From Moraxella sp. (GTDB lineage Bacteria; Pseudomonadota; Gammaproteobacteria; Pseudomonadales; Moraxellaceae): DNA of 34,640 nucleotides. Numbering within the stretch: the first letter of the stretch is position 1; each line of letters opens with the position of its first letter. A program made the position numbers and the translations under genes. The stretch is from NCBI RefSeq assembly GCF_030525845.1, contig NZ_JAUNDY010000019.1:1-34640 (forward strand), in the 5' to 3' direction. This document shows, one piece after another, positions 18,059 through 26,937 of the stretch. The notes under the pieces were generated by a model. That model ran no database searches. It was not told where the DNA came from and was given only the letters and a program-made list of their open reading frames with translations.

Positions 18059-19444
18059 TTAACCATGATAAATCCCCACCACTTTCCCCACCACAATAAT
18101 CGCAGGGGCAGGCAAATTAGCAGTCGCTTGTTTTTCCACAATATTACCCAAATCCCCCACCAATACTTTTTGGGTTGGTAGGCTTGCGTGCGAAATAATC
18201 GCCACAGGCGTATCGCTTGGCAAATCGGGCGTTAAACTTGCCACCACCTTATCAAGGGCGTGCAAGCCCATATAAAACACCAGCGTTTCATCGGCTTGAT
18301 AAGTGCTTTTTAGACCGTCAAAAGTCTCGCCCCCTGCTTTTTGTGAACTGGTATAGCACCCCGTCAAAAACCGCACGCTCGTTGCCACGCCCCGATGTGT
18401 GAGCGGAATGCCCGCACCGCTTGCCCCTGCTAGGCTGGCACTGATGCCCGCCACGATTTGATAGGGTACACCAGCCGCTTGGCACGCAAGCATTTCTTCG
18501 CCCCCACGCCCAAAAATAAAGGGGTCTCCGCCTTTTAGGCGTAACACTCGCTTGCCTTGTTTTGCCAAATCCACGAGCATCTGATTGATTTCATCTTGGC
18601 TTTTGGCGTGGCACGAGCGTTTTTTACCCACAAAAATCTTGTCGCTATCACGGCGACACAAATCCAAAATCTCATCAGACACCAAAGCGTCATACAGCAC
18701 AATGTCCGCTTGTTGCATTAATCGCAATGCCTTAAAAGTTAATAAATCAGGCGAACCTGCTCCTGCTCCGACAATATAGACTTCGCCTTGACTGTGATTG
18801 GTTTTTTCAAAATCGGATAACGCTTTTTGTAATTCATCAATATTAATATTGTGATTACCTGCAAATACGCCCACGCCATTTAAATTTTCGCCAAAAATCT
18901 TTTCCCAAAACTTGCGTCTGGCATTGACATTGGGCAATCGCTCTTTAATGGTGTCTCTAAATTCGCCCGCCACTTGTACCAATTTGCCGATATTGCTTGG
19001 CAATACGCTTTCTATTTTGGCACGAATCAGGCGAGCCAGTACAGGAGAATTGCCATTTGACGAAATACCCACCGTAATCGGATTTCTGTCCACAATCGCA
19101 GGAAAAATAAAATCGCACAATTCTGGCGTATCTACCACATTAACAGGAATGTTTAAAATTTTGCAATCTTGATAAATTTGACGGTTTAAATCATTATCAT
19201 CAGTAGCAACAATACAAAATACAAAGTCTGAATTTAAATCTGACTTATCATAAGATTTAATTATCAATTTATGATTATCATCTTTTAATAAGTGTGTTAA
19301 CTCATCATCAATATTTTTGGCAATGACGGTGATATTTGCCCCTGCCGATTTTATGAGCGCGGCTTTACGAATGGCGACTTCGCCCCCGCCAATGATTAAC
19401 ACGGAGTGATTTTGTAAATTAAAAAATAGGGGCAAGGTGTTCAT
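18059..19444 (-). CDS. cysG: Siroheme synthase (multifunctional CysG)
   Basis: 461 residues with two fused parts. Residues 1 to about 205 are the precorrin-2 dehydrogenase/sirohydrochlorin ferrochelatase (NAD-binding VLIIGGGEVAIRKA near 14-27). Residues from about 216 are the SAM-dependent uroporphyrinogen III methyltransferase (VYIVGAGAGSPDLLTFKA, LRLKGGDPFIFGRGGEE). It makes siroheme, the prosthetic group of the sulfite reductase CysI encoded at 28273-29967 on the same strand. Length agrees with E. coli CysG (457). AAAGGAT precedes ATG 19444. The crRNA-like element at 19602-19636 lies upstream on the same strand. Confidence 0.96.
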   Translation of the reverse strand: MNTLPLFFNLQNHSVLIIGGGEVAIRKAALIKSAGANITVIAKNIDDELTHLLKDDNHKLIIKSYDKSDLNSDFVFCIVATDDNDLNRQIYQDCKILNIPVNVVDTPELCDFIFPAIVDRNPITVGISSNGNSPVLARLIRAKIESVLPSNIGKLVQVAGEFRDTIKERLPNVNARRKFWEKIFGENLNGVGVFAGNHNINIDELQKALSDFEKTNHSQGEVYIVGAGAGSPDLLTFKALRLMQQADIVLYDALVSDEILDLCRRDSDKIFVGKKRSCHAKSQDEINQMLVDLAKQGKRVLRLKGGDPFIFGRGGEEMLACQAAGVPYQIVAGISASLAGASGAGIPLTHRGVATSVRFLTGCYTSSQKAGGETFDGLKSTYQADETLVFYMGLHALDKVVASLTPDLPSDTPVAIISHASLPTQKVLVGDLGNIVEKQATANLPAPAIIVVGKVVGIYHG

Positions 19445-19517: not shown

Positions 19518-19578
19518 TTTACAAAATGGAATATGCTTAGGCAAATATGCGGTATTTGTCAAAAATAATTCAACAACC

Positions 19579-19636
19579 ACACAAAACATACAATACAACC
19601 AATCTACAAGAGTAGAAATTAAAAAGGTCGTTAGAC
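19579..19636 (-). ncRNA. Solitary CRISPR-repeat RNA, candidate CreR-type autorepressor guide of Cas12a
   Basis: The minus strand at 19636-19602 reads GTCTAACGAC, CTTTTT, then AATTTCTACTCTTGTAGAT. It is a 35-nt relative of the 36-nt array repeat with one base missing and a few changes, all outside the handle stem: TCTAC and GTAGA are kept and only the loop changes (TATT to TCTT). There is no second repeat, so it is not an array. The bases that follow (19601 downwards) begin TGGTTGTATTGTATG. The first nine equal plus-strand 19863-19871, and TTTA, a Cas12a PAM, stands immediately before that match, near the cas12a promoter. Known crRNA-like regulators (CreA/CreR) combine a degenerate repeat with a short seed match to a cas or toxin promoter, giving binding without cleavage. 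Function is inferred. Confidence 0.8.
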
Positions 19637-19691
19637 CATTAAAGATGAGAATTACTTTCAAATATAACTAGCCAATTCCTCTTTTTTTGCC

Positions 19692-19700
19692 ATTATAACA
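19692..19700 (-). promoter_or_regulatory. Extended -10 promoter for the solitary-repeat RNA
   Basis: On the minus strand TGTTATAAT is a consensus -10 (TATAAT, 19692-19697) with TG extension. Transcription would start near 19685, about 50 nt ahead of the solitary repeat, and run toward cysG. The -35 is weak. Confidence 0.55.
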
Positions 19701-19858
19701 AAAATCATTGCAAAAATCAGTACGGATTTTTCGGTCCAACCACGACCACAAAAGATTTTGGCGTATAGACACCGCTACATCCAAACTAAATTTTTCTTAA
19801 AATTATTATAAAAATCAATATATTATATAATTTTAAGCCAATGTACATAACATCATCT

Positions 19859-19871
19859 TTTATGGTTGTAT
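19859..19871 (+). promoter_or_regulatory. Candidate Cas12a-guide target site: TTTA PAM plus 9-nt seed match
   Basis: TTTA (19859-19862) is followed by TGGTTGTAT (19863-19871), identical to the first nine guide bases after the solitary repeat at 19602-19636, in the orientation Cas12a requires. Beyond position 9 the match breaks down. The site is about 20 nt upstream of the best -35 of cas12a. Confidence 0.7.
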
Positions 19872-19891: not shown

Positions 19892-19920
19892 TTGAAAGCG
19901 ACAATTTTTTCTGCTAGACT
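19892..19920 (+). promoter_or_regulatory. Candidate promoter of cas12a
   Basis: TTGAAA (19892-19897, 5/6 to consensus), a 17-nt spacer and TAGACT (19915-19920, 4/6) lie 32 nt before the cas12a ATG. Alternative -10-like sequences are TATTAT at 19873-19878 and TATAAT at 19826-19831; all would be within reach of a complex bound at 19859-19885. Confidence 0.6.
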
Positions 19921-19952: not shown

Positions 19953-22900
19953 ATGCTATTCACGCACTTCACTCAACAGTACCCACTTTCTAAAACCCTG
20001 CGTTTTGAGCTCAAACCAATCGGAAAAACCCTGCAACATATCCAAGCTAAAAACTTTTTAGAAAAAGATGCTACCCTTGCTGAAAGTTATCAACAAATCA
20101 AGCCAATTCTTGATGAGTATCATCGTGATTTTATTGAGCAAGCATTAAATGGTGTGGAGTTATCGACATTGGCAGACTTTCAAAGTCATTATTTAACACT
20201 CAAACAAAATAAAAATGATGATAAGTTGCGTAAAGCTCTAGAAAAATCACAAGAGCAATTACGCAAAGCCATCGTTAAACAATTTAAAAAAGACGACAAA
20301 ACCAAAGCTTTATTTGAAAGGCTGTTTGCCAAAGAATTGTTTGGTAGTCATAAAGAATATGGCAGTTTAGTCAAATGGATCATCCAAAAAGAAGGAGAGC
20401 AATCGCAAAAGATTGCCCTTATACAACAGTTTATCGGTTTTACCACTTATTTTACAGGTTTTTATGAAAACCGTAAAAATCTTTATAGTGATGAAGCCAA
20501 GCATACGGCGATTGCTTATCGCTTGATTCACGAAAATTTACCACGCTTTGTGGATAACATTCAGATTTTAAGCCAGATTAAAGACAAATATGCTGATTTA
20601 TATCAACAGCTTAATCAATTAGACAATAAAATCACCAGTTCTTTTGATGGTTTTAATATTGACGATTTATTGGGTGTTAATTTTTATAATCGTCTTTTGA
20701 CCCAATCTGGTATCACAGCTTATAATGCGTTATTAGGTGGGAAAGTTTTGGATGATGATACAAAGCTACAAGGCATTAATGAGTCAATCAACCTTTTTAA
20801 TCAAAAGAACAAGACTAAAATCGCCAAATTAAAACCTTTACACAAACAGTTATTAAGTGATAAACAAAGCCTATCATTTTTACCGCCAAAGTTTCATGAT
20901 GACAATGAAGTTTGTACTGCAATTAATGAATTTTATCGCGGCTATCACGACAGTTTTTCCAAAATTGAGATCTTATTAAACGATATTCAAAAATACGATT
21001 TAACTGGGGTTTATATTCATCATGGGCAATTAACACATATCTCACATACATTGTATGGTAATTTTAATATCATCAATCAGACATTATCCGATTATTATAG
21101 CAATTTCATTAATACTGAGTTTAATACCAAACTTGCCAAAGCAACAAAAGACAGTGTCAAAGACAAATTACTCAAAGAGCGAGAGAAATTCATCAAATCC
21201 GAGCATAGTATTGCCGTTTTGGAACAAGCAATCAAGGCGTATTGTCAAAATAAAGATGATGTTGAATTTGTTTCTATTGCCGATTATTTTGCAGAATTCA
21301 CCATTCAAATTGATGATAAAAAATTATCAATCATCAAAGACATTGATAATAAATTTAGCACCATTAAAGGCTTTGTTGAAAAAGAATATCCAATAGGCGA
21401 ATGTACTTTTTATAAGCACAAAAAATCCCAAGACATCATCAATCTAAAACTATTTTTGGATAGTGTGATGACATTGATACACTTTATCAAACCGTTAGCA
21501 ATTGGCAATGATACAGGTTTAAATGAAGACAAGTCATTTTATGGTGAGTTTACGCCTTTATATGATGAATTAAAGCAATTTACTTCGCTTTACAATAAAG
21601 TGCGTGATTATATTTCACAAAAAGCCTTTGATACTGAGAAATACAAGCTCAATTTTGATAATGCTCAATTTTTAAATGGTTGGGATTTAAATAAAGAAAA
21701 AGATAATTTTGGCATTATCTTGCAAAAAAATGGTAATTATTATTTGGCGATTTTGGATAAAGACCATAAAAAAGTCTTTGAACAAGCACCTATTGCCACA
21801 AGTTCAGATGTTTATCAAAAAATGGTTTATAAACAAATTGCAAATGCTGGTGCGGATATTGCTACTATCCTAAAAATAGGTGGGGAAGTCGTTAGAAAAA
21901 CCAAAGGCTTAGAAGAGTTAAAAAATCAATATTTTCCACAAGAAATTAATAGAATTAGATTATCTCAAAGTTATTCGGTATCTTCCGAAAATTTCAATAA
22001 AGATGATTTAACTAAATATATTGATTTTTACAAAGAGCTTGTTCGAGAGTATTTTTCATACTTTAACTTCACTTTCAAGGATAGCGAGCAATATAAAAGC
22101 TACCCAGAATTTATCTCTGATGTAGATAGACAAGGATATGATATTAGATTTATTGACATTGACAGCAGTTATATTGATGACTTGGTGGAGCAAGGTAAGT
22201 TATACTTGTTCCAAATTTATAATAAAGATTTTTCTGACAAGAAAGTAGAAAAATTTGGCAAAGATAATTTGCATACTTTGTATTTTAAAGCCTTGTTTAG
22301 CCCAGAAAATCTGCAAAATGTGGTTTATAAATTAAATGGCGAAGCGGAGATTTTTTATCGCAGGGCGTCATTAAATCTTGATGATGTGGCAAAACACCCT
22401 GCTGGCGAAGTGTTAAAGATGAAAAATCCAAACAATCGCAATCAAAATAAAATCGCCACGCATACTATTATTAAAGACAAACGCTATACCCAAGATAAGT
22501 TTTTATTACATATTCCCATTACAATGAATTTTGGAGTTGCTGGCACTGGTTTTAAAGAGTTTAATCGCAATGTGAATCAAACGCTCAAAAATAGTAATGA
22601 CGACATTCATATTATCGGTATTGACCGTGGCGAACGCCATTTGTTATATGTCAGCGTAATCAACCAAAAAGGCGAGATTATTGAGCAAAAATCTCTAAAT
22701 GAAATCATCAATATTGGACATAATGGTGATAAGCTTAGTGTTAATTATCACACTATTTTGGATAATAAAGAAAAAGAACGAGCCGATGCCCGTGTAAACT
22801 GGGGCGAAATTGAAAATATCAAAGAAATCAAGCAAGGCTATTTGAGCCAAGTGGTGCATTATGTCAGCCAGTTGATGATGAAATATAATGCAATCATCGT

Positions 22901-23786
22901 GCTTGAAGATTTGAATTTTGGCTTTAAGCGTGGACGATTTAAGGTTGAAAAACAAGTTTATCAAAACTTTGAAAATGCCCTGATTAAAAAGCTTAATTAT
23001 TTGGTATTAAAAGATAAAAAAGCTGATGAGTTGGGTGGGGTTAGAAATGCCTTGCAATTAGCCAATAAACTTGAAGACATTAAGGAAATCGGCAAGCAAA
23101 CGGGCTTTTTATTCTATGTGCCAGCGTGGAATACCAGTAAAATTGACCCAACGACTGGCTTTGTGGATTTATTAAAACCGCATTATGAAAGCGTAGACAA
23201 ATCCATTGAGTTTTTTAAGAAATTTAATGCCATTCGTTATAATAGTCAACATGGTTATTTTGAATTTGCCATTAACTATCAAAACTTTGGCAATAAAGCC
23301 AATGGCTCAAAAACAGATTGGGTCATTTGTTCTTATGGCGATGTGCGTTATGTTTATAATAATGCCAAGAAAACCACAGACACAATCAATGTCAATGACG
23401 GTTTAAAGGCGTTATTTGATAAACATCAAATTCATTATCAATCTGGCGATAATTTGCTTGATGAGATTTGTGCTAAACACAATAAAGATTTGTACAGTGG
23501 TCTTTGTTATTATCTAAAAGTCATGCTGTCTATGCGATATAGCAATGCTCAAACTGGTGATGATTTTATTTTATCGCCTGTGATGAATGCAAATGGCGAG
23601 TTTTTTGACAGCCGTCAAGCGGATAAATCCCTGCCAAATGATGCCGATGCCAACGGAGCGTATCATATTGCATTAAAAGGTTTATGGATTTTGGAACAAA
23701 TCAAAAATAGTGATGATGTGGATAAAGTGGATTTGTATATTCGCAATGAATACTGGTTAAAATATTCACAAAATCGCTTTAATTAA
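19953..23786 (+). CDS. cas12a: Type V-A CRISPR effector nuclease Cas12a (Cpf1)
   Basis: 1277 residues, within the normal Cas12a range (about 1230-1370). N-terminus FTQQYPLSKTLRFELKPIG is typical of the WED-I/REC start. RuvC catalytic residues are intact: Asp891 in IGIDRGERH, Glu985 in VLEDLNFGF, Asp1232 in DADANGAYHI. Residues His815, Lys824 and Lys841 have the same spacing as the crRNA-processing residues H843/K852/K869 of Francisella Cas12a, so it should mature its own crRNAs. In the PAM region NGWDLNKEKDN places Asn575 and Lys581 where AsCas12a has Ser542 and Lys548. AAGGAT precedes the ATG. Base composition is more AT-rich than the flanking gyrA-cysG region. It is followed by a terminator and then by the adaptation genes. 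A candidate autorepressor guide lies upstream. Confidence 0.98.
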   Translation: MLFTHFTQQYPLSKTLRFELKPIGKTLQHIQAKNFLEKDATLAESYQQIKPILDEYHRDFIEQALNGVELSTLADFQSHYLTLKQNKNDDKLRKALEKSQEQLRKAIVKQFKKDDKTKALFERLFAKELFGSHKEYGSLVKWIIQKEGEQSQKIALIQQFIGFTTYFTGFYENRKNLYSDEAKHTAIAYRLIHENLPRFVDNIQILSQIKDKYADLYQQLNQLDNKITSSFDGFNIDDLLGVNFYNRLLTQSGITAYNALLGGKVLDDDTKLQGINESINLFNQKNKTKIAKLKPLHKQLLSDKQSLSFLPPKFHDDNEVCTAINEFYRGYHDSFSKIEILLNDIQKYDLTGVYIHHGQLTHISHTLYGNFNIINQTLSDYYSNFINTEFNTKLAKATKDSVKDKLLKEREKFIKSEHSIAVLEQAIKAYCQNKDDVEFVSIADYFAEFTIQIDDKKLSIIKDIDNKFSTIKGFVEKEYPIGECTFYKHKKSQDIINLKLFLDSVMTLIHFIKPLAIGNDTGLNEDKSFYGEFTPLYDELKQFTSLYNKVRDYISQKAFDTEKYKLNFDNAQFLNGWDLNKEKDNFGIILQKNGNYYLAILDKDHKKVFEQAPIATSSDVYQKMVYKQIANAGADIATILKIGGEVVRKTKGLEELKNQYFPQEINRIRLSQSYSVSSENFNKDDLTKYIDFYKELVREYFSYFNFTFKDSEQYKSYPEFISDVDRQGYDIRFIDIDSSYIDDLVEQGKLYLFQIYNKDFSDKKVEKFGKDNLHTLYFKALFSPENLQNVVYKLNGEAEIFYRRASLNLDDVAKHPAGEVLKMKNPNNRNQNKIATHTIIKDKRYTQDKFLLHIPITMNFGVAGTGFKEFNRNVNQTLKNSNDDIHIIGIDRGERHLLYVSVINQKGEIIEQKSLNEIINIGHNGDKLSVNYHTILDNKEKERADARVNWGEIENIKEIKQGYLSQVVHYVSQLMMKYNAIIVLEDLNFGFKRGRFKVEKQVYQNFENALIKKLNYLVLKDKKADELGGVRNALQLANKLEDIKEIGKQTGFLFYVPAWNTSKIDPTTGFVDLLKPHYESVDKSIEFFKKFNAIRYNSQHGYFEFAINYQNFGNKANGSKTDWVICSYGDVRYVYNNAKKTTDTINVNDGLKALFDKHQIHYQSGDNLLDEICAKHNKDLYSGLCYYLKVMLSMRYSNAQTGDDFILSPVMNANGEFFDSRQADKSLPNDADANGAYHIALKGLWILEQIKNSDDVDKVDLYIRNEYWLKYSQNRFN

Positions 23787-23791
23787 ATTTA

Positions 23792-23827
23792 TAGGCTTAA
23801 TTCAAACTGGATTGAGCCTATTTTTTT
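23792..23827 (+). terminator. Intrinsic terminator between cas12a and cas4
   Basis: A 12-bp stem with two G-U pairs (TAGGCTTAATTC and GGATTGAGCCTA), a 5-nt loop and then seven Ts starts six nt after the cas12a stop. It matches the textbook form and should reduce transcription into cas4-cas1-cas2. Confidence 0.85.
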
Positions 23828-23838
23828 GGAAGAGTATT

Positions 23839-24405
23839 ATGGAATACAATGTTTTGAATATCAGTCAATTAAATGATTTTATTTTTTGCCCCTATTCCAT
23901 TTATTTGCATAATGTTTATCAAGCATTAGACGATGAACAATTTCACGACACACCGCAAGTGGCTGGCAAACAAGCACATCAAACCATTGATGAAAATACT
24001 TATAGCACCAAGAAGACAGTATTAACAGGTATGATGGTGTACTCTGAAAAATATGGGCTGATTGGCAAGATTGACCAATATTTTATACAAAGTAAAAAGT
24101 TGATTGAACGAAAGAAAAAGATTAAAACCATTTACGATGGTTATAAATTACAACTTTATGCTCAATATTTTTGTTTGATTGAGATGGGGTTTGAAATTGA
24201 ATATCTTGGATTTCATTCTATGGACGATAATAAAAATTATTACATTCCAGTTCCTGACGATAATATTATAGAATGGTTTGAAAATCACTTATATAAAATT
24301 CGCCATTATAATCCTAATTTTGTTATTCAAAATATCAATCTTAATAAATGCCAATACTGCATTTATTCTGCTTTGTGCAACCAAACAACTTTGTATGACA
24401 ATTAG
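23839..24405 (+). CDS. cas4: CRISPR-associated exonuclease Cas4
   Basis: 188 residues from ATG 23839, chosen because GGAAGAG lies just upstream (the frame is open to a TTG at 23812 inside the terminator hairpin). Four cysteines for an Fe-S cluster are present: Cys17 in FIFCPYS and Cys171, Cys174, Cys180 in the C-terminal KCQYCIYSALC. RecB-nuclease motifs are visible: GLIGKIDQY (metal-binding Asp), LIERKKK (ExK-type) and YKLQLYAQY (QxxxY). In type V-A systems Cas4 trims prespacers and selects those with a PAM, working with Cas1-Cas2. The cas1 ATG follows after nine nt. Confidence 0.95.
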   Translation: MEYNVLNISQLNDFIFCPYSIYLHNVYQALDDEQFHDTPQVAGKQAHQTIDENTYSTKKTVLTGMMVYSEKYGLIGKIDQYFIQSKKLIERKKKIKTIYDGYKLQLYAQYFCLIEMGFEIEYLGFHSMDDNKNYYIPVPDDNIIEWFENHLYKIRHYNPNFVIQNINLNKCQYCIYSALCNQTTLYDN

Positions 24406-24414
24406 GGGGTATTT

Positions 24415-25419
24415 ATGCTCAATCAAAGTGATTTAAAACACCGTCAAGTGGTGTTATTAACCAATCAAGAACTTCGTCATCTATGTATATCTCAAGGCAA
24501 TATTGTGATCAAAGATGAAAATGATGAAGTCTTAACACGCTTATCCAAAAACAAAGTATTGGCAATCATGAGTATTGGTCATATTACTTTGACTAGTATT
24601 TTAATGGATTATTGCCAAAAAAATAATATCGCTTTAATTTTAATGAATGAACGCTTACGACCAATATTATTTATGAGTCATTCTGCTGATGCTAATTTTT
24701 TATTAAGACAAAAGCAGTATTTAATGACAGAAGATTTAAAGCTTTATTTTGCAAGCCGTATTGTTCAATCCAAAATTGACGGTCATATTTTATTGCTCAA
24801 AAATATCAGGCAAAAGAATGATGAAATAAAGCAAGCAATATCCACATTGGAACAATATCGTGAACAATGCTTATCTAATCGTAATTTAAATTATCTGATG
24901 GGGATTGAAGGTAATTCAGCAAAGTTATTTTTTAAAATCCATTTTTCCAATCTTAAAAATTTGGAATGGAGGGGTAGAAAACCAAGATTAAAACTTGACC
25001 CTGTTAATGTGGTTTTGGATATGGGATATACATTGCTCTTTAATTATATTGAATGCAATTTAAAATTATTTGGTTTTGATGTCTATCAAGGGGTATTGCA
25101 TCAACTTTGGTTTAAACGTAAATCATTGGTTTGTGATTTTGTTGAGCCATTTCGCTGCATTATTGACAAACAAGTATTAACTGCTTTTAATTTGGGGAAA
25201 TTTAAAAACGAACATTTTACACAAAATAAAATGCAATATTATCTCAATAAAGAACATAATCGGAATTATAATGCAATATTAATGCAGGCTATTATTGAGC
25301 ACAAACAAGAGGTTTTTATTTATTTGCGTGAATATTATCGCCTATTTATGAAATTAAATCATAAAAATTTAGATATTGAATTTCCAGAATTTGATTTATT
25401 CTCAAAAGAGGTTAAATAA
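24415..25419 (+). CDS. cas1: CRISPR-associated integrase Cas1
   Basis: 334 residues; the catalytic integrase subunit that inserts new spacers at the leader-repeat junction. Metal-binding residues are in place: Glu165 in GIEGNSAK, His229 in GVLHQLW, and Asp241/Glu244 in SLVCDFVEPFR. AGGGGGT precedes ATG 24415, overlapping the region of the cas4 stop. It is followed after one nt by the cas2 ATG. Size and motifs match type V-A Cas1. The adaptation set cas4-cas1-cas2 looks complete and intact, so the array could still grow. Confidence 0.96.
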   Translation: MLNQSDLKHRQVVLLTNQELRHLCISQGNIVIKDENDEVLTRLSKNKVLAIMSIGHITLTSILMDYCQKNNIALILMNERLRPILFMSHSADANFLLRQKQYLMTEDLKLYFASRIVQSKIDGHILLLKNIRQKNDEIKQAISTLEQYREQCLSNRNLNYLMGIEGNSAKLFFKIHFSNLKNLEWRGRKPRLKLDPVNVVLDMGYTLLFNYIECNLKLFGFDVYQGVLHQLWFKRKSLVCDFVEPFRCIIDKQVLTAFNLGKFKNEHFTQNKMQYYLNKEHNRNYNAILMQAIIEHKQEVFIYLREYYRLFMKLNHKNLDIEFPEFDLFSKEVK

Positions 25420-25420
25420 A

Positions 25421-25690
25421 ATGATTATTGTTAGTTATGATATTAGCGATAATAAAGTGCGAACAAAATTTGCCAAATTTTTAATGGAATATGGCGACCG
25501 ACTGCAATATTCGGTGTATGAAATTCAAAATAGTGAACGCATTTTAAATATCGTTACACAAAGAATAAAACACGAATTTGAACCCTTGTTTTGCGGGGCG
25601 GATAGTGTTATAATATTCAGATTTACAGAGCGAGAAGTATTGCGTTTTGGCAATGCAGTTCATCGCGTGCAGGATTTATTGGTGTTGTGA
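25421..25690 (+). CDS. cas2: CRISPR-associated protein Cas2
   Basis: 89 residues from ATG 25421, one nt after the cas1 stop; AAAGAGG at 25405-25411 gives the ribosome-binding site. The frame is open upstream into cas1 but MIIVSYDISDNKVRTKFAKFL is the standard Cas2 start, with the conserved Asp7 of the ferredoxin-like fold. Cas2 bridges two Cas1 dimers in the integration complex. It is followed by about 134 nt of leader before the first repeat. Confidence 0.96.
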   Translation: MIIVSYDISDNKVRTKFAKFLMEYGDRLQYSVYEIQNSERILNIVTQRIKHEFEPLFCGADSVIIFRFTEREVLRFGNAVHRVQDLLVL

Positions 25691-25824: not shown

Positions 25825-26937
25825 GTCTAACGACTTTATTTAATTTCTACTATTGTAGATATGGATTTTTTGGCTTTTAGTGATTTTGTCTAACGACTTT
25901 ATTTAATTTCTACTATTGTAGATAAGCCCCCCGAATGACAACGCAAGTTGTCTAACGACTTTATTTAATTTCTACTATTGTAGATTCGGTTGCCCATGCC
26001 ATTGCTTTAAAAGTCTAACGACTTTATTTAATTTCTACTATTGTAGATAATTGCCACCGCATGAAATTGCCTTTGTGTCTAACGACTTTATTTAATTTCT
26101 ACTATTGTAGATTGGCGTTCTACCGCCTGTTTGACTTCATGTCTAACGACTTTATTTAATTTCTACTATTGTAGATTGCGATGGGTCATCGCTTCGACAG
26201 AGTGTCTAACGACTTTATTTAATTTCTACTATTGTAGATCCGTGTCCATTAGCACCAGTAACAAGAAGTCTAACGACTTTATTTAATTTCTACTATTGTA
26301 GATATTGCAACGGAAAAGCAAGCCCACAGCCGTCTAACGACTTTATTTAATTTCTACTATTGTAGATACATAAATGCGGTTCATCATCTAAATCGTCTAA
26401 CGACTTTATTTAATTTCTACTATTGTAGATAGATAAGTTTGTGTGATGTATGTATTTGTCTAACGACTTTATTTAATTTCTACTATTGTAGATGCAATAC
26501 TATTAATGTATTGGTTTAATGTCTAACGACTTTATTTAATTTCTACTATTGTAGATAATGGAAAAACCAAAAGCCCAAAAGATGAGTCTAACGACTTTAT
26601 TTAATTTCTACTATTGTAGATTAAATCGCAAAAACTTCGCATAATGTAGGTCTAACGACTTTATTTAATTTCTACTATTGTAGATAAATAACCCCTAATT
26701 AAAGGGGTTATTGTCTAACGACTTTATTTAATTTCTACTATTGTAGATTGCCTCATATATCATCTGGTTTTGATGTCTAACGACTTTATTTAATTTCTAC
26801 TATTGTAGATTTTGTAGTAATTACAGTGAATTTTATATGTCTAACGACTTTATTTAATTTCTACTATTGTAGATTCAGAGCCAAATTTTACTTGGCATTG
26901 TGTCTAACGACTTTATTTAATTTCTACTATTGTAGAT
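25825..26937 (+). CRISPR. Type V-A CRISPR array, 18 repeats and 17 spacers
   Basis: Eighteen 36-nt repeats, all identical by eye, begin GTCTAACGAC, then TTTATTT, and end AATTTCTACTATTGTAGAT. The 3' part forms the Cas12a handle: stem TCTAC/GTAGA with loop TATT. Repeats start at 25825, 25888, 25950, 26013, 26077, 26141, 26204, 26268, 26332, 26395, 26458, 26521, 26586, 26650, 26713, 26775, 26839 and 26902. Spacers are 26-29 nt (mostly 27-28) and all differ. The last repeat is also perfect. Orientation is the same as cas12a, and the leader is on the cas2 side, so spacer 1 (25861-25887) should be the newest. None of the spacers matches elsewhere in this window by eye. Confidence 0.99.

Follow-up and report, generated by a model that had tools for sequence, protein, structure and literature searches.

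Does the lone, diverged CRISPR repeat upstream of cas12a in this Moraxella genome give rise to a crRNA-like RNA that guides Cas12a to the promoter of its own gene? The window, i.e., the whole 34,640-nt stretch of DNA analysed, is one contig of a 1.89-Mb genome assembled in 44 contigs and carries a type V-A system. The lone repeat sits between a cysG-like gene and cas12a, in a gap of 316 nt. Taken together, the sequence comparisons below make it very probable that this repeat and the bases following it encode a CreR directing Cas12a to repress its own gene.

The solitary repeat and its target upstream of cas12a

The relevant features of the window were as follows.

19578..19601, minus strand: would-be guide, with the seed TGGTTGTAT at 19593-19601
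19602..19636, minus strand: solitary V-A repeat of creR, with the Cas12a handle at 19602-19620
19692..19700, minus strand: possible creR promoter, a putative extended -10 (TGTTATAAT) 55 nt ahead of the repeat, good -35 absent
19859..19862, plus strand: TTTA PAM of the target, as read in the sequence
19863..19871, plus strand: 9-nt seed target; a 20-nt protospacer would extend to 19882
19892..19920, plus strand: likeliest cas12a promoter by consensus match only, TTGAAA (19892-19897), 17 nt and TAGACT (ending at 19920), with TG before the -10
19953..23786, plus strand: cas12a, 1277 aa, with five Cas12a domains in Pfam (RuvC_1, REC1, NUC, Cpf1 REC2 and PI-like)
23812..24405, plus strand: cas4 (PF01930)
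24415..25419, plus strand: cas1 (PF01867)
25376..25690, plus strand: cas2 (PF09827)
25825..26937, plus strand: CRISPR array of 18 repeats

The array repeat, present in 18 copies, was GTCTAACGACTTTATTTAATTTCTACTATTGTAGAT. The solitary repeat, read on the minus strand from 19636 to 19602, was GTCTAACGACCTTTTTAATTTCTACTCTTGTAGAT and had no adjoining partner repeat; its handle matched that of the array except at one base in the loop, and its 5' half had diverged. When the genome was searched for the handle with up to two mismatches, 21 matches were obtained (the lone repeat, the 18 array repeats and two distant single ones), bearing out the sequence-only reading of a diverged, partnerless minus-strand repeat that keeps the handle stem. 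The backwards control of this search gave one match, indicating that handle matches alone are not proof. The element is a crRNA-like unit outside the array, near the cas genes and with an intact handle, one of the features by which a CreR is recognised. Read leftwards from 19601, the guide was TGGTTGTATTGTATGTTTTG.

The handle was formed in the predicted fold of the window RNA. In the unprocessed RNA (window 19580-19640, minus strand), the 5' half of the repeat was predicted to pair with the guide seed (GGUUGU), so that the seed would stay hidden until trimming by Cas12a. The best predicted fold of the L021 RNA was another structure, not the handle; Cas12a binding may or may not override it.

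The nine guide bases were repeated at 19863-19871 directly after TTTA, as had been claimed, and TTTA followed by TGGTTGTAT (19859-19871) was the sole copy of TTTV plus TGGTTGTAT in the whole 1.89-Mb genome. Pairing of guide and target stopped at position 10, in agreement with the claim that it ends after the seed. The limited, PAM-adjacent match to the cognate cas promoter region that marks a CreR was thus 9 nt after TTTA, with none continuing from position 10. The -35 TTGAAA begins at 19892 and the seed target therefore ends 20 nt ahead of the -35 hexamer, in line with the distance noted at the outset; this promoter shares its score (9/12) with two other plus-strand matches, which start at 19797. 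Five promoter-like sites were found in the region against a shuffle mean of 3.7 (sd 1.9), showing no excess. With equal-score alternatives and a shuffle-level density of sites, the cas12a promoter is a prediction.

At the local base composition, the expected number of such sites was 3.4e-5 per 100 bp, rising to 1.4e-4 over the whole gap of 316 nt; the initial chance figure of about 1 in 100,000 was about 3 to 14 times too low. When the 332-nt region was shuffled 5000 times with its dinucleotide content kept, no shuffle gave more than 7 nt, and the best match of the 18 array spacers to the region was 6. Guide shuffles equalled the 9-nt match of the window in 8 of 5000 cases. A match of only this length would suit a decayed array remnant without function, the first 'spacer' of which resembles the promoter by chance. 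For judging the match, recurrence across species weighs more than a p-value.

Recurrence among cas12a loci and co-change of guide and target

Among 22 Moraxella genomes searched, one per species, nine had cas12a, the window's genome included, and the lone repeat was found upstream of cas12a in six of the nine. In five of the eight other genomes it lay 180-183 nt upstream; these carriers were M. bovoculi 237, M. caprae DSM 19149, M. lacunata NCTC10359 and the genomes G010 and G012. The lone-repeat element was absent from M. oculi, Moraxella sp. VT-16-12 and G004, all with cas12a. A search for the relatives' handle and guide type, which a different guide would escape, matched the five carriers but nothing in the 13 genomes that lack cas12a. 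The guides of the five relatives begin with TGAGAATATGC, or with TAAGAATATGTAA in G012. Each matched 10-13 nt directly beside a TTTA on the minus strand, ahead of the cas12a gene of its own genome, with zero mismatches in the first ten guide-target positions. Across the six Moraxella, TTTA-flanked guide matches of 9-13 nt were thus found in the guide's own promoter region; the observed length was reached by 0 of 5000 region shuffles in each of the six, and 0 or 1 times per 5000 guide shuffles in the five relatives. The proposal that the guide is aimed at its own cas12a promoter gained support from these five genomes: a lack of seed-target conservation in relatives that keep the repeat had been named beforehand as able to refute it, and seed and target were conserved in 5 of 5. 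In G010 (contig 1, 47357-51144; L050) the cas12a match came in two pieces that overlap slightly (residues 1-259 and 256-1275), which suggests from the sequence a broken gene, though its lone repeat and target still match.

Fifty cas12a loci were examined more widely, some of them closely related and three (L022, L024 and L026) with less than 350 nt upstream, allowing up to two substitutions in a lone repeat within 1 kb upstream of cas12a. Ten lone hits were obtained. A lone full repeat was present in 8 of the 50 loci, namely the six Moraxella and two Coriobacteriia (L035 and L037), and all eight had a TTTA-anchored match near a predicted promoter, of uneven strength. The two weak hits set aside, at -807 in L021 and at -805 in L023, lacked the GTCTAAC half; the best promoter match in the former was a single exact nt, extending to 8 when G:U pairs are counted, and that in the latter was 7 nt with a GTTC PAM. 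In L035 and L037 the lone V-A repeat was about 215-220 nt upstream and in the same direction as cas12a. The protospacer there was over the predicted -35, and TATAAT was found 17 nt ahead of the handle. L037 had an exact match of 8 nt, reached by 2/5000 region shuffles and 5/5000 guide shuffles. L035 had 4 nt exact (123/5000 region and 814/5000 guide shuffles), or 10 nt with one G:U at position 5; L035 alone would be unconvincing. L039 carried a lone handle slightly beyond the 1-kb limit (1,038 nt upstream), and this had no promoter match.

A Cas12a relative was found in 0 of 79 stretches of viral contigs, and phage records gave no match; one distant Butyrivibrio record matched among plasmids, and it carried no lone upstream repeat. 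The REC1 domain was detected in 2/396 genomes of the class around a Coriobacteriia genome (both known beforehand), 2/369 of the window's class (window included), 17/393 of the order around a Bacteroidales genome (one, L084, below the cut-off) and 2/391 of the class around a Clostridiales genome. None of the 17 newly found loci examined, with the below-cut-off L084 left out, had a lone upstream repeat.

When the five relatives were aligned, positions 2 and 11 of the G012 guide differed from the others, and both changes recurred in the G012 target. Every guide was scored on every promoter in a table of 8 x 8 loci. The window guide scored 9 on its own promoter and 2-4 on the others, and the G012 guide 13 on its own and 1-3 on the others; the four sister guides scored 10-12 within their own group of promoters and 2-3 beyond it. 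By these sequence comparisons, guides fit only the promoters of their own lineage, and seeds differ between lineages and change along with their targets. Co-maintenance of guide and promoter target is a supporting feature chosen here rather than one taken from a published CreR criterion. The array-remnant explanation is favoured by two further solitary repeats in the genome and by the lone handle of L039 without a promoter match, indicating that solitary repeats need not all act as CreR. Against it stand a layout that five other Moraxella share although their seeds differ, the paired change in G012 and table scores that are high only within lineages; we rejected a chance match or array relic on this cross-species co-change of guide and target, leaving it a very small probability. 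Origin from a full self-spacer, with pairing past the seed, was tried separately and rejected as well: after the seed, only 5 of 15 window positions agree, and identity per 20 nt varied from 9 to 16 over the eight loci, no tail being consistently present.

The window seed was unrelated to the seeds of the five relatives, and its target was on the opposite strand (plus versus minus). Relative to the predicted cas12a start, the 20-nt protospacer nevertheless lay at -64..-45 in the window (plus) and at -65..-46 or -64..-45 in the five relatives (minus), showing that the predicted binding footprint (about -65 to -45) is kept while seed and strand differ. A protein-binding motif would not explain this shared position; a Cas12a-sized object just upstream of the -35 would. 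A shared transcription-factor operator was rejected since guide and target are inverted relative to each other in the window but run in the same direction in the five relatives, and only the handle-plus-PAM register was common to all. The joint change of guide and promoter and the kept predicted footprint offer sequence evidence of function without experiment.

The proposed circuit and competing explanations

Pre-crRNA is processed by Cas12a itself, which cuts immediately 5' of the handle and needs no second repeat. In the proposed circuit, Cas12a would trim the crRNA-like RNA 5' of its handle and then load it, and the 9-nt seed would pair with the site that follows TTTA, a short way ahead of the -35 box of cas12a. 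Cutting by Cas12a requires a long guide-target match, so matches of 9-13 nt would give binding only; with pairing that ends after the seed, Cas12a should bind the window target without cutting. The complex, parked at -65..-45, would hinder RNA polymerase and reduce cas12a transcription. With Cas12a taken up by array crRNAs or anti-CRISPRs, less of the CreR complex would form and cas12a expression would rise. Transcription of the element, repression and its relief by crRNAs or anti-CRISPRs are what we infer by analogy with published CreR work; processing of the creR RNA and its loading onto Cas12a are likewise presumed. Such a thermostat would be relevant to how cells afford the nuclease, and to the rise in cas12a expression expected under anti-CRISPR attack.

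The complex may instead control mainly the creR transcript, or both divergent promoters, rather than cas12a alone. In the five relatives a possible creR promoter (TGTTATAAT, weak -35) was divergent from cas12a, with its predicted start near the first bases of the repeat. In L021, L023, L042, L049 and L050 the two predicted promoters diverge with the protospacer between them; counted from the cas12a start it lies at about -65..-45, and counted from the creR start at -59..-40. From this position creR itself may also be controlled, and one complex might touch both promoters at these five loci. A weak minus-strand promoter match in the window (19904-19877, 9/12) also points through the target towards creR. 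However, the TGTTATAAT likeliest for creR in the window (19692-19700) is about 160 nt from the target. The footprint promoter scan covered the cas12a direction only and thus did not weigh creR control evenly; we consider control directed mainly at creR, or at both promoters, very improbable. Solitary repeats do act as RNA anti-CRISPRs, and RacrVA1-3 inhibit a reconstituted M. bovoculi V-A system (PMC10651486), but a Racr-like decoy that mimics the repeat and ties up Cas12a, with an incidental promoter match, was the least probable explanation of all, because the element is beside cas12a in the window and in five other genomes, not in phage, and a decoy does not need a PAM-abutting match that co-changes with the promoter.

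Further solitary repeats and comparison with known systems

The two distant handles in the same genome were full-length V-A repeats with a GTCTAAC(A/G)AC 5' half. One, on contig 24 outside the window (18203-18238, minus strand; L091, L102), ends 31 nt before an lrgA-like gene that is followed by lrgB; the LrgA-like gene scored below the Pfam cut-off. The other, on contig 16 and also outside the window (46203-46239, plus strand; L090, L099), ends 22 nt before a CheY-like response-regulator gene, which lies downstream of a CheA-like kinase gene. Both repeats are in sense orientation to the gene and keep the handle stem, with changed loops. A pattern search of the 22 Moraxella genomes, which allowed no mismatches and left out any repeat whose third base ahead of the handle is C or T, found no repeat before lrgAB-like or cheY-like genes in other species; two array repeats of M. 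oculi also matched, and the backwards control gave nothing. A second lone V-A repeat, partly decayed and away from the cas locus, was seen in M. caprae (G002 contig 69, L100, about 1501-1522), flanked by ORFs of 431 aa and 337 aa. In G008, contig 45 (L095, 138-156), a handle-like element without the GTCTAAC half was located a short distance ahead of an ORF that spans 500 aa or more; this is possibly a chance match, in a genome where cas12a was not found.

No PAM-anchored match of 8 nt or more to the guides of the two extra repeats was present in the window and two further stretches of the genome. One same-strand promoter match (9/12) was found near the lrgAB-like leader and none in the scan of the cheY-like leader, and folding of both leaders was no better than that of shuffles. 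If these repeats were transcribed within mRNA leaders, Cas12a could trim the mRNA and cover the ribosome-binding site. Free Cas12a would then be the hub of a small regulon comprising its own gene, via a CreR with seed and target strand exchanged relative to those in related species but an unmoved footprint, and the lrgAB-like operon and cheY-like leader mRNAs, a speculation that we regard as unlikely. Under it, expression of the lrgAB-like (autolysis-modulator) and cheY-like genes would follow the free Cas12a level, and host mRNAs would also be regulated by Cas12a if the two leader repeats work, something with no description among the literature matches listed. Gene control has been achieved with engineered direct repeats placed in 3' untranslated regions (PMC11988398); no case of natural leader-repeat regulation by Cas12a was among the matches listed.

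Several known systems resemble the window element in part. As in scaRNA/tracr-type autoregulation of Cas9, a non-array RNA would steer a Cas effector through short pairing, with host transcription repressed, whereas the effector there is Cas9 and the RNA architecture is different (PMC9458426, PMC13131331). Racrs, like the window element, are solitary repeat units, and they are transcribed without an array; they come from mobile elements and need no target, whereas the window element is beside cas12a with a matched target (PMC10651486). Its neighbours are the cysG-like gene and cas12a, not a mobile element, and its position is the same in five other Moraxella. CreA (CreTA/CrePA) likewise has a diverged ectopic repeat and a guide partly matching a promoter, but CreA represses a toxin gene whereas the window guide matches the cas12a promoter region (PMC9458426, PMC12737573). 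No toxin gene was recognised in the gap, where besides cas12a only ORFs of 20-71 aa were found; a CreT RNA could escape such a search.

The closest counterpart is CreR. The statement that CreR-type regulators are known, also for type V-A, was confirmed by reviews, which describe autorepression through CreR in type V-A as well as in types I-B and I-E (Liu et al. 2023, doi 10.1016/j.chom.2023.08.005, via PMC13131331, PMC12948488, PMC12737573). The window element shares with it a crRNA-like RNA from outside the array with limited complementarity to a cas promoter, and a predicted autorepression of Cas that senses crRNA load and anti-CRISPRs (PMC13131331, PMC12948488, PMC12737573). It differs in that the CreR of these reviews is a mini-CRISPR with two repeats and the window element has one, and in having its own species, seed and target strand. 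This particular element was not recognised in any description among the literature matches listed. The mechanism, as reported in those reviews, is already described, and on this comparison the window element is very probably the CreR of a further Moraxella species, to which CreR-type autorepression of Cas12a would thereby be extended.
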